Below are positions 715 to 59,560 of a stretch of 64,000 nt of DNA, in pieces. The DNA is from a virus. The DNA lies in the IMG/VR virus record IMGVR_UViG_3300049215_000771, positions 62,001 to 126,000 of that record; one strand, written 5' to 3'. The notes beneath the pieces were generated by a model that saw nothing but the letters and a program-made list of their open reading frames with translations, did not search any database and had not been told where the DNA came from. The translations under genes were made by a program, and so were the position numbers. Position 1 is the stretch's first letter, and each line of letters begins with the position of its first letter.

Positions 715-987
715 ATGACCACCAAAGTCACCCAAGCGGAATGCGAAGAGGCCAGGCCCGTTTGTGATCTGGTCTACACTGTCATCAAGGATCACCCGGA
801 AGGGATCAATTATCCCGACCTGATCCGTGAAATCAGGCTGCGGGGATGCACGATTTCTGATCTTTCGGAGCGTGTGCATTTTTCGCTGCACTGTATGGTT
901 TGTCACGGGGTTTGCGATAGGCTGGAAGCGCCGACCCTGGAGCGTATCTACCAACTTCCGGCACTGGAGAAGAAGTCCAATGAGTAA
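715..987 (+). CDS. Small protein, possible winged-helix fold
   Basis: 90 codons, with promoter P653 just upstream. The middle (HPEGINYPDLIREIRLRGC, then LSERVHFSLHCMVCHGVCDRL) resembles a winged-helix DNA-binding layout, with a helix-turn-helix followed by a hydrophobic strand; this is inference from pattern only. The stop TAA (985-987) overlaps the ATG (980) of the release-factor reading frame, so the two genes are likely translationally coupled. Confidence 0.65.
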   Translation: MTTKVTQAECEEARPVCDLVYTVIKDHPEGINYPDLIREIRLRGCTISDLSERVHFSLHCMVCHGVCDRLEAPTLERIYQLPALEKKSNE

Positions 988-1778
988 GCGCAAGAATCAG
1001 TGGTTCGAGGAACGCAAGGTCCAGCAGCCGGCGACTGTTTGTCTTTGAGGCAGCCAACACCCTTCTCGTCGAACTTCAGTTCGGCGAAGGCGGCACGGAC
1101 TCAAAGCTGTTCGTTGCTGACCTTCTACTCACCTACCAACGCTACGCCGCCATCAAAGGCTTCAAGACAGAACTCCTCTCCGAAGAAAATGGCAAAGCCA
1201 TGCTCAAGGTGATGGGGAAGAATGTCTGGACGGCCTTCAAGAATGAACCCGGCAAGCACGTTGTTCAGCGTGTGCCTCCGACCGAGCGTTCGGGGCGGTG
1301 GCAAACATCTGTGATTTCCGTCGCCGTCCTGCCGCTGCCCCCGGAAAACAAGCTGGTTCCACTCCAAGAAAAAGACTTGGAAATTACCACGCAAACCGGC
1401 AAGCAGAAGGCGGGCGGACAAAACGTCAACAAAGTCGCCAGCGCCGTCAGGATGAAGCATAAGCCTACGGGTCTGTCTGTATTCATCAACGGGCGGGACC
1501 AAGGCCAGAACAAGAAGGAAGCCCTGCATGTTCTGACGGCCAGGGTCAACCAGCTTCGTCTCGACAAGACCGCCTCCGATTACGACAATCTGAGGACGGG
1601 ACAGATGAAGGGAATCGGCGACAAACTCGGTGGTAGGGGCGACAAGATTCGTACCTACAACTTCATCAAGTCGAGGGTGGTGGATCACAGACTCGGCGTG
1701 AAGACCGGAAACATCAAGGAAGTGATGAAGGGAAACCTCACACTCCTGTTCGACAGTCAAGAAAAAGATGAAGAATAA
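980..1778 (+). CDS. Class I peptide chain release factor with probable +1 programmed frameshift
   Basis: Translation termination factor. Reading from ATG 980 gives 22 codons, then CTT TGA at 1043-1048. Skipping T1046 joins this to an open frame running 1047-1778 (join 980..1045,1047..1778; 265 aa). The second frame has no ATG, GTG or TTG before its first conserved residues, so it cannot start alone. It holds the domain 2 strand ELQFGEGGTDSKLF, the codon-recognition segment HVVQRVPPTERSG (PPT at about residues 99-101, an RF1-type PxT motif) and the catalytic GGQ (about 145-147, KAGGQNVNKVASAVR). The N-terminal domain 1 of normal RF1/RF2 is missing. CTT-TGA is the slip site of bacterial RF2 genes, but no strong upstream Shine-Dalgarno stimulator is seen. 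A PrfH-like rescue factor is an alternative role. Confidence 0.85.
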
Positions 1779-1783
1779 CAAAG

Positions 1784-1820
1784 AAAAGGCCAGGCCGATT
1801 TGATTCGGCCTGGCCTTTTT
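1784..1820. terminator. Bidirectional intrinsic terminator
   Basis: Stem AAAAGGCCAGGCCG (1784-1797) pairs with CGGCCTGGCCTTTT (1806-1819) around an 8-nt loop, with A- and T-runs on both sides. It lies between the convergent release-factor and protease genes and can serve both. Confidence 0.85.
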
Positions 1821-1833
1821 TCCCTTTTTTGTT

Positions 1834-2610
1834 TCAATTAGCCTTGAATCGGACATATTTGTGGGCTGTCCAGAAGTCGGAAGCGAGTTCCGGGTTCTCG
1901 ATGTAAGCGTAAGGCATTTCAAAGTAACCACTCATGCCCCAGCTTGCGCCCCAGGAATTGCGGACCTTGACCATCTTCGTGGCGTCGTTATAGCCAACTG
2001 CACATACAGCGTGACCACCAACAACCTGCTCGCCAGGCTTCGGCATCGGCATGATGCCAGTGTTGGCAACAGCGTCAGACTCGAAACTTTCGTATACGAC
2101 GAAACCGAAAATGAAAGGGTAGCCCTGCGCCAAGCACTGCTTCATGGCGGTCAAATTGCCATCGCCAATCTGCAAGCCCTTGTCAATGCTGTGCCAGTAA
2201 CCATCAGACCAAACAGGCTTAGATGGTTTTTCGGCGAACTTGTTGCCCTGGTCGGTGTACGGCCACAGGCTTTCGTGAGGAACGCCAAATCGAACAAGGG
2301 TGTTCATGGCATGAGCCAGGGTAGAACCATCATCCGATTGGGTGGTTCCATCCTGAAGGCGGTTCCACCAGTAGATTGCCAAACGAGATGGTACAAACTC
2401 GCCCAGCTTCAATTTCATCATGAGGAATTCAGCGAAACCAGCGGCAGAGTTGCCGGTGCAGGAACCAAGCTGCCCCTGGTCGTAGACAGCCGGACATTGC
2501 GGCGTCAGGTCAACTTCTGCGGGAAGGTTTGCTGCCTCGATTTCGGGCAGGAACTTGTGAGGGTGGTCAATGACCGGACCCTTCTTCCAACCATATGCGT
2601 ATTTTCCCAT
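1834..2610 (-). CDS. Papain-like (C1A) cysteine peptidase
   Basis: 258 aa. The active-site Cys lies in DQGQLGSCTGNSAAGF (Cys about 51, with the oxyanion-hole Gln shortly before). The His is in VVGGHAVCAVGY and the Asn in VRNSWGASWGMSGYF, so the papain triad is complete. There is no signal peptide or long propeptide; the enzyme probably acts in the cytoplasm or is packaged. ATG 2610 has a good ribosome site (GGAGG) on the minus strand. Similar peptidases occur in large phages and could cut host or virion proteins; substrate unknown. Confidence 0.9.
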   Translation of the reverse strand: MGKYAYGWKKGPVIDHPHKFLPEIEAANLPAEVDLTPQCPAVYDQGQLGSCTGNSAAGFAEFLMMKLKLGEFVPSRLAIYWWNRLQDGTTQSDDGSTLAHAMNTLVRFGVPHESLWPYTDQGNKFAEKPSKPVWSDGYWHSIDKGLQIGDGNLTAMKQCLAQGYPFIFGFVVYESFESDAVANTGIMPMPKPGEQVVGGHAVCAVGYNDATKMVKVRNSWGASWGMSGYFEMPYAYIENPELASDFWTAHKYVRFKAN

Positions 2611-2689: not shown

Positions 2690-3238
2690 ATGCAGCACGA
2701 CAAACTCACGAATCTGGTGAAAGAATTCGCCTTGTCATTTGGCGATTTCACCCTCTCTAGTGGCGCAAAATCCCCATATTTTGTGGATATGAGCAAGGTC
2801 ACAAACCACGGTGAAGGTTTGGATGTCATCACCCTGGAATTTTCCCGAATGATAGGAGATGCCGATGCCATTGGCGGTCCAGTTTTGGGCGCAGCCCCTC
2901 TTGTAGCTGGAACTATCTTGGCTCATCGCCGGGATCATTTCGGTATGGCGAAGCCATTGCGAGGTTTCCTGGTTCGTAAAGAGCCGAAAGATGGGGAATA
3001 TATTGAAGGTTTCCTGAAGAAAGGCGACAAAGTGGTAGTCGTTGAGGATGTTGTTACCACGGGGACGCAAACCTTCAATGCCATCAAGCACGTTGAGGCC
3101 GCAGGAGGCCGAGTTGTGGGTGTTCTGGCGGTTCTGGATCGTCTCGCCGGGGCCAAGGGGAAGCTGGCCGATTACCACTTCCGGGCGCTGCTCACGATAG
3201 AAGATTTGGGAATTTCTGCGAACCTAACGGCCCCTTGA
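2690..3238 (+). CDS. pyrE: Orotate phosphoribosyltransferase
   Basis: 182 aa from ATG 2690; an earlier in-frame ATG at 2675 overlaps a possible -10 (TACAAT, 2678-2683). Transfers phosphoribose from PRPP to orotate to make OMP in pyrimidine synthesis. The family signatures are FTLSSGAKSPYFVDM near the N-terminus and the PRPP loop KVVVVEDVVTTGTQTFNAI. Normal length is about 200-215, so it is slightly short at the C-terminus. The PRPP synthetase at 15929 would supply its substrate. Confidence 0.85.
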   Translation: MQHDKLTNLVKEFALSFGDFTLSSGAKSPYFVDMSKVTNHGEGLDVITLEFSRMIGDADAIGGPVLGAAPLVAGTILAHRRDHFGMAKPLRGFLVRKEPKDGEYIEGFLKKGDKVVVVEDVVTTGTQTFNAIKHVEAAGGRVVGVLAVLDRLAGAKGKLADYHFRALLTIEDLGISANLTAP

Positions 3239-18836: not shown

Positions 18837-18930
18837 GGAAGCGAATGCCGTCTGGTGTAGGCCGCAGTCTTCAAAACTGTTGTAGGGTGTGAACAACACT
18901 CTAGGAGGGTTCGATTCCCTTTCGCTTCCG
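18837..18930 (+). tRNA. selC-like: tRNA with UCA anticodon, selenocysteine type
   Basis: 94 nt. The acceptor stem has 8 bp (GGAAGCGA 18837-18844 with TCGCTTCC 18922-18929), the T stem 5 bp (18905-18909 with 18917-18921, one G-U) around TTCGATT, giving the 8+5 stack of bacterial tRNA-Sec. Anticodon loop CTTCAAA (18869-18875) carries TCA at 18871-18873, on a 4-bp stem plus a G-U. The long variable arm has 7 bp (18884-18890 with 18896-18902) and a 5-nt loop. Length and shape match E. coli selC (95 nt); an opal-suppressor serine tRNA is the alternative. No selA, selB or SECIS is visible here. Confidence 0.85.
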
Positions 18931-20883: not shown

Positions 20884-22230
20884 ATGGCAAAGAAAGACAA
20901 GGGTTCGTCGGTCTGTGACTACTGTGGCAAAAGCAGCAAGCAGGCTGGCGTCTTGGTCGAAGGACCGCCAGCGAAAAATGAAGTGAACGGTCGTCCACCT
21001 GGATCGAGGCCGTACATTTGTCCTGGCTGCATCGAACTGTGTGCTGACGTGGTGAAGCAGAAGATGATGAAGCAGGGAACCGCTGATGTCATCCCCAAGA
21101 ACCTGCCGACTCCACGGCAGATCGTGGAGGAACTGGATCAGTACATTGTCGGCCAGGATCGAGCCAAGCGTGTCCTGGCCGTTGCCGTCCACAACCACTA
21201 CAAGCGGCTCAGGGACGATGCCGAGCGGCTGGACACCTACGACCCGGAAGATGAGTTGGCGAACACGACCATCGAGAAGGCGAACGTGCTGCTGGTCGGT
21301 CCTACGGGGTGTGGCAAGACATTGCTGGCCCGGACGCTGGCCCGCATTGTTGGTGTTCCTTTCGCAATCGGAGACGCCACGACGCTCACGGAAGCTGGTT
21401 ATGTCGGCGAAGATGTTGAGAACCTGGTTCTGAAGCTGGTTCGCAACGCCGAATTCAATGTCGAACTGGCCCAGCAGGGTATCATCTACCTGGACGAAGT
21501 TGACAAGATCGGGCGCACTACCTCGAACGTCTCGATTACTCGTGACGTATCAGGAGAAGGGGTCCAGCAAGCCCTGCTGAAGATGCTGGAAGGCACTGTC
21601 TGCAACGTGCCGCCGCAAGGTGGGCGCAAGCACCCGGAACAGCAGTACATCCAGGTGGACACGACCAACATCTTGTTCATCTGTGGTGGAACCTTCGTGG
21701 GCCTGGATCAGATCGTGAAACGCCGCACCGGAAAAAGTGGTATGGGTTTTGGCCAGGTCCGGCCTGCCGGCCTGACCGACCAGAAAGAAAAAAACCAACT
21801 CATCGAGCAGGTTTCGACGGACGACCTGGTGGAATTTGGCATCATCCCGGAGTTTGTTGGTCGGTTGCCGGTCATCGCTCCACTGATGGAGATGGACGAG
21901 GATGCCCTGGTGGACGTGCTGACGAAGCCCAAGGACGCCATCGTAAAACAGTACAAGAAGCTGTTCCGCATGGATGAAGTGAAACTGGAATTTACTGACA
22001 AGGCAATCCGTGAAATCGCCAAACTCGCCATCGAGAAGGGTACTGGCGCTCGTGGTCTTCGCAGCGTGGTGGAAGGTTTCATGACCGACACCATGTACGT
22101 TCTCCCGGAGCATAGCGGAGAAACCATCGTGATCGACGAAAGTATGGTCAAGGGCGAACGTCCGATCTTCGAGAAGCCCAAGGCTGTGGAAATCGTGGAA
22201 CCGCCCAAAGAAGAAGAAAAGGCAGCCTGA
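20884..22230 (+). CDS. clpX: ClpX-type AAA+ unfoldase
   Basis: 448 aa, near the normal 420-430. N-terminal zinc-binding domain ([12 protein letters not shown] ... ICPGCIELC), Walker [15 protein letters not shown], pore region [14 protein letters not shown], Walker [12 protein letters not shown], sensor-2 arginine near [12 protein letters not shown]. The ClpP-docking IGF loop reads MGFG here ([13 protein letters not shown]), so ClpP binding is likely kept. It may redirect host ClpP or remodel phage proteins. No clpP is in the window. Confidence 0.95.
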
Positions 22231-45570: not shown

Positions 45571-46002
45571 ATGATGGACGTTTGCAACAACCGGAAGGCC
45601 CGCTATGATTACCATATCCTCGATACTGTCGAGGCGGGGATCGTATTGCAGGGCACTGAAGTCAAGGCTCTCCGGGCCAAACTTGCCTCATTGGAAGGTT
45701 CTTACGCCGTCATTCGTGACGGCGAAGTGTGGATGATTGGCTCTCATGTTGAAGAGTACGACCACGGCAACCATCACAACCACAACCCCAAGCGGGAGCG
45801 GAAGCTGTTGGTCAAGCGACACGACATCAAGAAACTTTCTGGTGAGGTTCGTGTGAAGGGAAAAACCCTCGTGCCCCTTCGCATTTACTTCTCCGGGCGC
45901 TGGGCCAAGGTGGAACTGGCGCTGGCGCAGGGCAAGCAGACGCACGATAAACGGCAAACCCTGAAAGAAAGGGAGCAGCGTAAGGAAATGAAGGGCTATT
46001 GA
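45571..46002 (+). CDS. smpB: SsrA-binding protein SmpB
   Basis: 143 aa, full length. NRKARYDYHILDTVEAGIVL, GTEVKALRAKLASLEGSYAV, EEYDHGNHHNHNPKRERKLL, KTLVPLRIYFSGRWAKVELA and the basic DKRQTLKEREQRKEM tail match SmpB throughout. SmpB carries tmRNA to stalled ribosomes. No tmRNA gene is visible here; it may lie elsewhere or be the host's. Confidence 0.95.
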   Translation: MMDVCNNRKARYDYHILDTVEAGIVLQGTEVKALRAKLASLEGSYAVIRDGEVWMIGSHVEEYDHGNHHNHNPKRERKLLVKRHDIKKLSGEVRVKGKTLVPLRIYFSGRWAKVELALAQGKQTHDKRQTLKEREQRKEMKGY

Positions 46003-59392: not shown

Positions 59393-59463
59393 GCCCCGTT
59401 GGTACATTGGCTGTGCCGTGGCCTCTAAAGCCACAGAAGTCGGTTCGATTCCGGCACGGGGTA
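59393..59463 (+). tRNA. tRNA with CUA (amber) anticodon, first of a pair
   Basis: 71 nt. Acceptor GCCCCGT/ACGGGGT (G-U at the first pair), D stem GTAC/GTGC, anticodon arm GTGGC-CTCTAAA-GCCAC with CTA at 59425-59427, T arm GTCGG-TTCGATT-CCGGC. The 7-nt loop is identical to that of the E. coli supF amber suppressor. It reads UAG; charging amino acid unknown. Confidence 0.85.
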
Positions 59464-59466
59464 CAA

Positions 59467-59539
59467 GCCCTGGTAGCTCAGTGGTCAGAGCGGTTGACTC
59501 TAAATCAACGTGTCGTGGGTTCGATCCCCACCCAGGGCG
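59467..59539 (+). tRNA. tRNA with CUA (amber) anticodon, second of a pair
   Basis: 73 nt, three bases after the first tRNA. Acceptor GCCCTGG/CCAGGGC, D stem GCTC/GAGC, anticodon arm GTTGA-CTCTAAA-TCAAC with CTA at 59500-59502, T arm GTGGG-TTCGATC-CCCAC, discriminator G. The body differs clearly from the first, so the pair is not a simple recent duplication. Confidence 0.88.
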
Positions 59540-59560
59540 CTGCATATCATAGGGAGGTTC

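Follow-up and report, generated by a model that had tools for sequence, protein, structure and literature searches.

The window analysed here is a stretch of 64,000 nucleotides, positions 62,001-126,000 of a 532,729-base virus record that represents a 533-kb bacteriophage genome. Close to its start lies a short leader open reading frame (ORF) that ends at a stop codon, followed in the +1 frame by a longer coding sequence for domains of a release factor (Table 1). A papain-family cysteine protease gene (1834-2610, minus strand) lies directly downstream in convergent orientation.

Table 1. Features of the release-factor locus, with positions counted from the first nucleotide of the window.
Feature	Position	Strand	Details
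Shine-Dalgarno-like stretch	966..975	+	GGAGAAGAAG, 5' of ATG980; read directly
Leader ORF, zero frame	980..1048	+	22 sense codons MSKRKNQWFEERKVQQPATVCL plus TGA; ATG overlaps 3' end of upstream ORF 715-987
Slip site TGT CTT TGA G	1040..1049	+	E-site codon TGT 1040-1042, slip codon CTT 1043-1045, stop TGA 1046-1048
+1 frame, RF1-like class-I release factor domains 2-4	1047..1778	+	stop TAA 1776-1778
GGTDSK, at RF1 GGxEA position (first recognition helix tip)	1089..1106	+	alignments
Codon-recognition stretch	1266..1310	+	QRVPPTERSGRWQTS; alignments; PxT present
GGQ catalytic motif	1413..1421	+	read directly; alignment
Terminator-like hairpin and T run, 3' of gene	1784..1821	+	read directly

An initial annotation, made from the sequence of the window, had described 22 codons that begin at ATG980 and end in CTT TGA, and this arrangement was confirmed. 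It had also described a +1 frame that lacks a start codon of its own, and indeed ATG, GTG, and TTG are absent from that frame between its upstream stop (a TGA just before position 984) and ATG1200, which is well within the conserved release-factor domain. If CTTT is taken as a single step, leader and +1 frame become one open protein of 265 amino acids that runs to the TAA at 1776-1778, and the predicted leader-release factor fusion has the junction peptide ...PATVCLEAANTL.... Across the 533-kb genome, 44 places show an ATG-initiated ORF with its stop together with a +1 frame that has no start and is 150 codons or longer; CTT precedes the stop at only one of these, the site in the window. AGGA, GGAG, or GAGG was found 5' of the leader ATG in 16 of the 21 related loci checked, the window among them. 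The slip site itself is weak by the standards of bacterial prfB, with no Shine-Dalgarno-like stretch 5' of the CTT (hybrid energy of +0.4 kcal/mol) and with G rather than C as the base after TGA. Since both stimulators are missing, the efficiency of slippage at this site may be low.

Judged from its sequence, the +1 product is a predicted class-I release factor that is closest to RF1. It contains the Pfam domains PCRF and RF-1, it scores 212 bits against an RF1 profile versus 153 bits against an RF2 profile, and searches of NCBIfam and PDB sequences ranked RF1 above RF2, with PrfH far behind. The curated models for RF1 (PrfA) are missed, with 205.4 and 212.5 bits versus cut-offs of 423 (TIGR00019) and 400 (NF001859), respectively, and the score against the PrfH model (46 bits) is likewise below its curated cut-off of 167. 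The absence of domain 1, already noted in the initial annotation, was borne out by a match that begins at position 104-113 of the 347-position RF1 profile, as was the RF1-type recognition motif, given that PPT sits at the PxT position of RF1. The Gln three residues before PPT is kept, as in the QRVPxT of RF1, and the His of GRxHTS is replaced by Gln (GRWQTS), a residue found at this position in about half of the family. A few family members carry other recognition loops, including PHL in L041 and PDN in L047. An AlphaFold2 model built from 21 family members (mean pLDDT of 85) found its best Foldseek matches in RF1 on the ribosome (E of 1e-24), and the predicted fold is that of RF1 in its ribosome-bound shape. 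Collectively, the recognition motif and its surroundings suggest that the factor encoded in the window probably has RF1-like codon specificity (UAA/UAG).

Relatives of the locus were collected through seven scans of viral contigs with protein queries, a phage collection, and one genome scan. Automated frame analysis covered 40 distinct loci, four of which are ordinary bacterial-type RF1 or RF2, and nearly all of the sequences compared are metagenome assemblies. A CTT-stop +1 junction just 5' of the conserved release-factor domain is present in 23 distinct viral loci, including the window, and in three others (L010, L172, and L209) the junction lies roughly 30-40 codons inside the domain, where it was apparently recruited separately. 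The family thereby totals 33 CTT-stop sites in 26 loci, with TGA at 19 sites, TAG at 11, and TAA at 3. The protein sequences of the broken loci are 40-68% identical; the release-factor body is conserved and the junction is kept, and the leaders are divergent. The closest relatives of the window factor, L039 (TAA) and L040 (TAG), are ~67% identical to it and have the same PPT loop and the same place of junction. Compared with one another, L039 and L040 have release-factor bodies that are 98% identical in DNA and leaders that can barely be aligned, yet CTT and the frame are kept while the stop differs. Two checks proposed in the initial annotation could thus be answered: homologs with the same split occur, at 23 loci from many samples, and uninterrupted close relatives, as would be expected of a sequencing error, were not found, with all near relatives broken at the same point. 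That the sequences come from metagenome assemblies and that the window site has no stimulators would fit a sequencing or assembly error or a decaying pseudogene. Nevertheless, the recurrence of one junction across many samples, in 23 loci with this level of protein divergence, together with a conserved release-factor body and a pre-stop codon fixed as CTT, makes such an explanation barely credible for the window, and the sequences of the relatives have already refuted it for the family.

The CTT-stop sites look selected. In 23 of 24 +1 clade loci the codon before the junction stop is CTT, whereas 0.8% of ORFs that have a ribosome-binding site carry CTT as their final codon (p about 5e-42, which is overstated because loci were taken as independent). 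The sequence just 5' of the slip codon pairs with the anti-Shine-Dalgarno with a mean energy of -4.9 kcal/mol, compared with -0.8 kcal/mol for nearby control CTTs (p=1e-7), and C follows the stop at 23 of 33 sites versus 20% of genomic stops (p=1.5e-9), where both p values count related sequences as independent. About 60% of the family sites have a Shine-Dalgarno-like stretch. As for the stop that ends the release-factor gene itself, 21 of 26 clade members use UAA, compared with 44% of nearby genes (p=1.3e-4), a preference that would fit a factor that needs to be capable of finishing its own synthesis.

Seven loci require two successive +1 slips. The stops differ between the two sites in L003/L004 (TAG then TGA), L005 (TAA then TGA), and L041 (TAA then TAG), and the same stop is used twice in L042 and L043 (TGA) and in L049 and L117 (TAG). 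The stronger anti-Shine-Dalgarno pairing is usually at the first site of these genes, and in L003, L005, L042, and L043 the middle segment is without any start codon. These segments bear on whether the factor could arise from independent initiation in the +1 frame, either at a non-standard start codon or when ribosomes re-initiate past the leader stop, with the leader as a separate small ORF. Such a model would allow for a leader that is short and unconserved in sequence, as is observed. However, most broken loci have no ATG, GTG, or TTG in the +1 frame ahead of the conserved domain, and neither the start-less middle segments, the CTT at 23 of 24 junctions, nor the prfB-like stimulators at family sites would be expected from it, so that independent initiation is quite improbable. 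Frameshifting is almost certainly needed for expression of the factor, as judged from the arrangement of the frames.

Reassignment of a stop codon as the cause of the break was ruled out, because genes end at TGA, TAG, and TAA alike, both in samples of 20-40 kb taken around slip-clade genes and across the entire 533-kb record. A raw comparison of ORF lengths had hinted that TGA is a sense codon, and this proved to be an artefact of antisense ORFs. ARAGORN called 55 tRNAs in the phage record, two of which are tRNA-Leu(GAG), which reads CUU. Three tRNAs with a CUA anticodon (UAG-reading) were also noted (window 59393-59540 and L036:11736-11826); UAG is still a stop in gene calls. A tRNA with a UCA anticodon (window 18837-18930) matches the selenocysteine tRNA family with 76.5 bits. 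The record contains a single match to the SelB model, which scores below that model's cut-off and could be a different translational GTPase. A 396-amino acid open frame (L292, G000:C1:490126-491031) matches the N-terminal part of the model below cut-off and is possibly a phage EF-Tu; a Pfam scan of one chosen stretch of L292 gave no match. Ribosome-rescue and proteolysis components, SmpB and a ClpX-like ATPase, are encoded elsewhere in the window (45571-46002 and 20884-22230).

On a protein tree, the slip clade has a support of 97/91 and includes two exceptions, L056, which is unbroken, and L158, which slips at GTT. On this tree the identity of the slip stop must have switched seven times or more, and the number of sites must have changed between one and two on at least five occasions. 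No link between the identity of the slip stop and the residues of the recognition loop was seen by eye in the alignment. The sister group without frameshift includes phages with an in-frame UGA in the release factor; in the release factors of such phages designated L006, L007, and L009, Val, Ile, or Asn replaces the RF1 Gln before PPT, which possibly alters reading of the third base. In-frame stops without a change of frame are also seen in L048 (TGA, 2968-2990), L118 (TGA, 2956-2995), and L159 (TAG, 2998-3110), and these genes would need readthrough because the phages that carry them use TGA or TAG as stops. They may be readthrough versions of the control, and assembly error is also possible, above all for L159. 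A UGA-reading tRNA suspected just 5' of the L048 gene found no support from ARAGORN or Rfam. The DNA motif AGGGGGTGYCTTTAGC was rejected as a diagnostic: of 20 such stretches in viral contigs only L272 (L049 record) is a release factor, and most of the rest seem to be ordinary in-frame coding sequence (GGVFS) for unrelated proteins.

The explanation favored here, to which a probability of roughly 0.8 is assigned, is that the locus encodes a domain-1-less RF1-like factor expressed via obligatory programmed +1 frameshifting. As the initial annotation had suggested, the shift would take place at a prfB-like CTT-stop site, a claim supported by the frame structure and the kept junctions. Ribosomes that initiate at ATG980 would translate the leader to its end and pause there, with CUU occupying the P site and UGA the A site. 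Fast action of a release factor would free the leader peptide. If termination is slow, tRNA-Leu could, as the resemblance to prfB suggests, re-pair from CUU to UUU and the +1 frame would be translated, which would tie production of the factor to a shortage of termination capacity. Elsewhere in the family, UGA, UAG, or UAA may act as the sensing stop, and some genes carry two sites in series. Regulation of the factor through such sensing of termination is likely. A slip that is uncontrolled and constitutive, setting a low level of the factor and sensing nothing, would be compatible with the several sites, that of the window among them, that are without a Shine-Dalgarno-like stretch and with the freely changing identity of the stop. 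It is nonetheless an unlikely explanation, given that a stop always follows the slip codon, although a low level would need none, and given the strong likeness to the autoregulatory prfB cassette, whose shifting depends on the rate of termination (PMC5009743).

What the sites would sense depends on the stop. An RF1-like factor could sense itself at a UAG or UAA slip site and would sense RF2 at UGA. A factor specific for UAA and UAG would therefore close no feedback loop at a UGA site such as that in the window, and this counts against the explanation favored above. The initial annotation had concluded that the switch senses host RF2 instead of itself; this may hold for UGA sites but does not extend to the family, where TAG or TAA is used at 14 of the 33 sites and seven loci carry two sites in series. 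These observations, together with the TAA of L039 and the TAG of L040, suggest that sensing of RF2 at UGA is one variant of a sensor with a freely changing stop. Free exchange of the stop in turn suggests sensing of overall termination capacity or a factor that reads all three stops. It is thus conceivable, if doubtful, that the family is a general termination-capacity sensor. Were all three stops read by the factor, any of them could serve for self-sensing; alternatively, mixed tandem sites (TAG then TGA, TAA then TGA, TAA then TAG) might act as an AND gate that opens only if both kinds of termination are slow.

The factor resembles bacterial RF1 (PrfA) in its best sequence and fold matches, GGQ motif, PxT position, and preceding Gln (QRVPxT), and differs from it in the lack of domain 1, the scores below curated cut-offs, and the frequent Gln in place of the His of GRxHTS. 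PrfH is likewise a class-I factor without domain 1, yet the window factor is far below the PrfH cut-off. RF1-like factors of other huge phages (LR756501, LR756502, LR745206, and LR756504) are also domain-1-less with PPT...QTS; their genes have no frameshift, and an in-frame UGA suggests that UGA is a sense codon there. A survey of huge phages lists RF1 and RF2 genes without mention of frameshifting (PMC7162821), and no account of these phage sites was found in the literature searched, which excluded subscription papers and bioRxiv.

The cassette is like that of bacterial prfB (RF2) in its CUU slip codon, A-site stop, short leader, and factor body in the +1 frame, and at many family sites also in the upstream Shine-Dalgarno-like stretch and the C after the stop. 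The window site shares the CUU-stop and the +1 position of the rest of the gene but not the Shine-Dalgarno-like stretch 3 nt before CUU or the C. Unlike prfB, the family is phage-borne, encodes an RF1-like factor without domain 1, uses UAG or UAA at 14 of 33 sites, and has tandem sites in seven loci. Among 8,164 bacterial prfB motifs surveyed, 98.6% have TGA, 1.4% TAA, and none TAG, and the same survey found no convincing programmed frameshift in prfA (PMC12421855). A 2016 review of recoding stated that a UAG/RF1 counterpart of the RF2 control was unknown; the largest series of CUU substitutions was run with UAG (PMC5009743). The nearest analogue is the eRF1 gene of Mimivirus and its relatives. 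It too is a release factor gene carried by viruses, it shares the CUU-stop cassette, and its two recoding events are a readthrough and a shift at CUU UAG or CUU UAA (PMC3521657; PMC6582330). In Mimivirus and Megavirus, UGA readthrough accompanies a +1 shift at CUU UAG C or CUU UAA C, and the Mimivirus CUU UAG C site shifts +1 in E. coli (PMC3521657). That system has a eukaryotic-type factor and host and pairs one readthrough with one shift, whereas two-site phage genes would use two shifts. RF1-type, UAG-based, and tandem +1 control in bacteriophages thus appears new on the basis of these sequences, although the principle itself is known. The family would supply the missing UAG/RF1 counterpart of the RF2 control and add tandem +1 shifting within one bacterial-type gene. 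It would also offer a natural set of sites with different stop codons, stimulators, and numbers of slips, set against an encoded protein that varies much less, and it bears on how translation termination is handled by huge phages in the course of infection.
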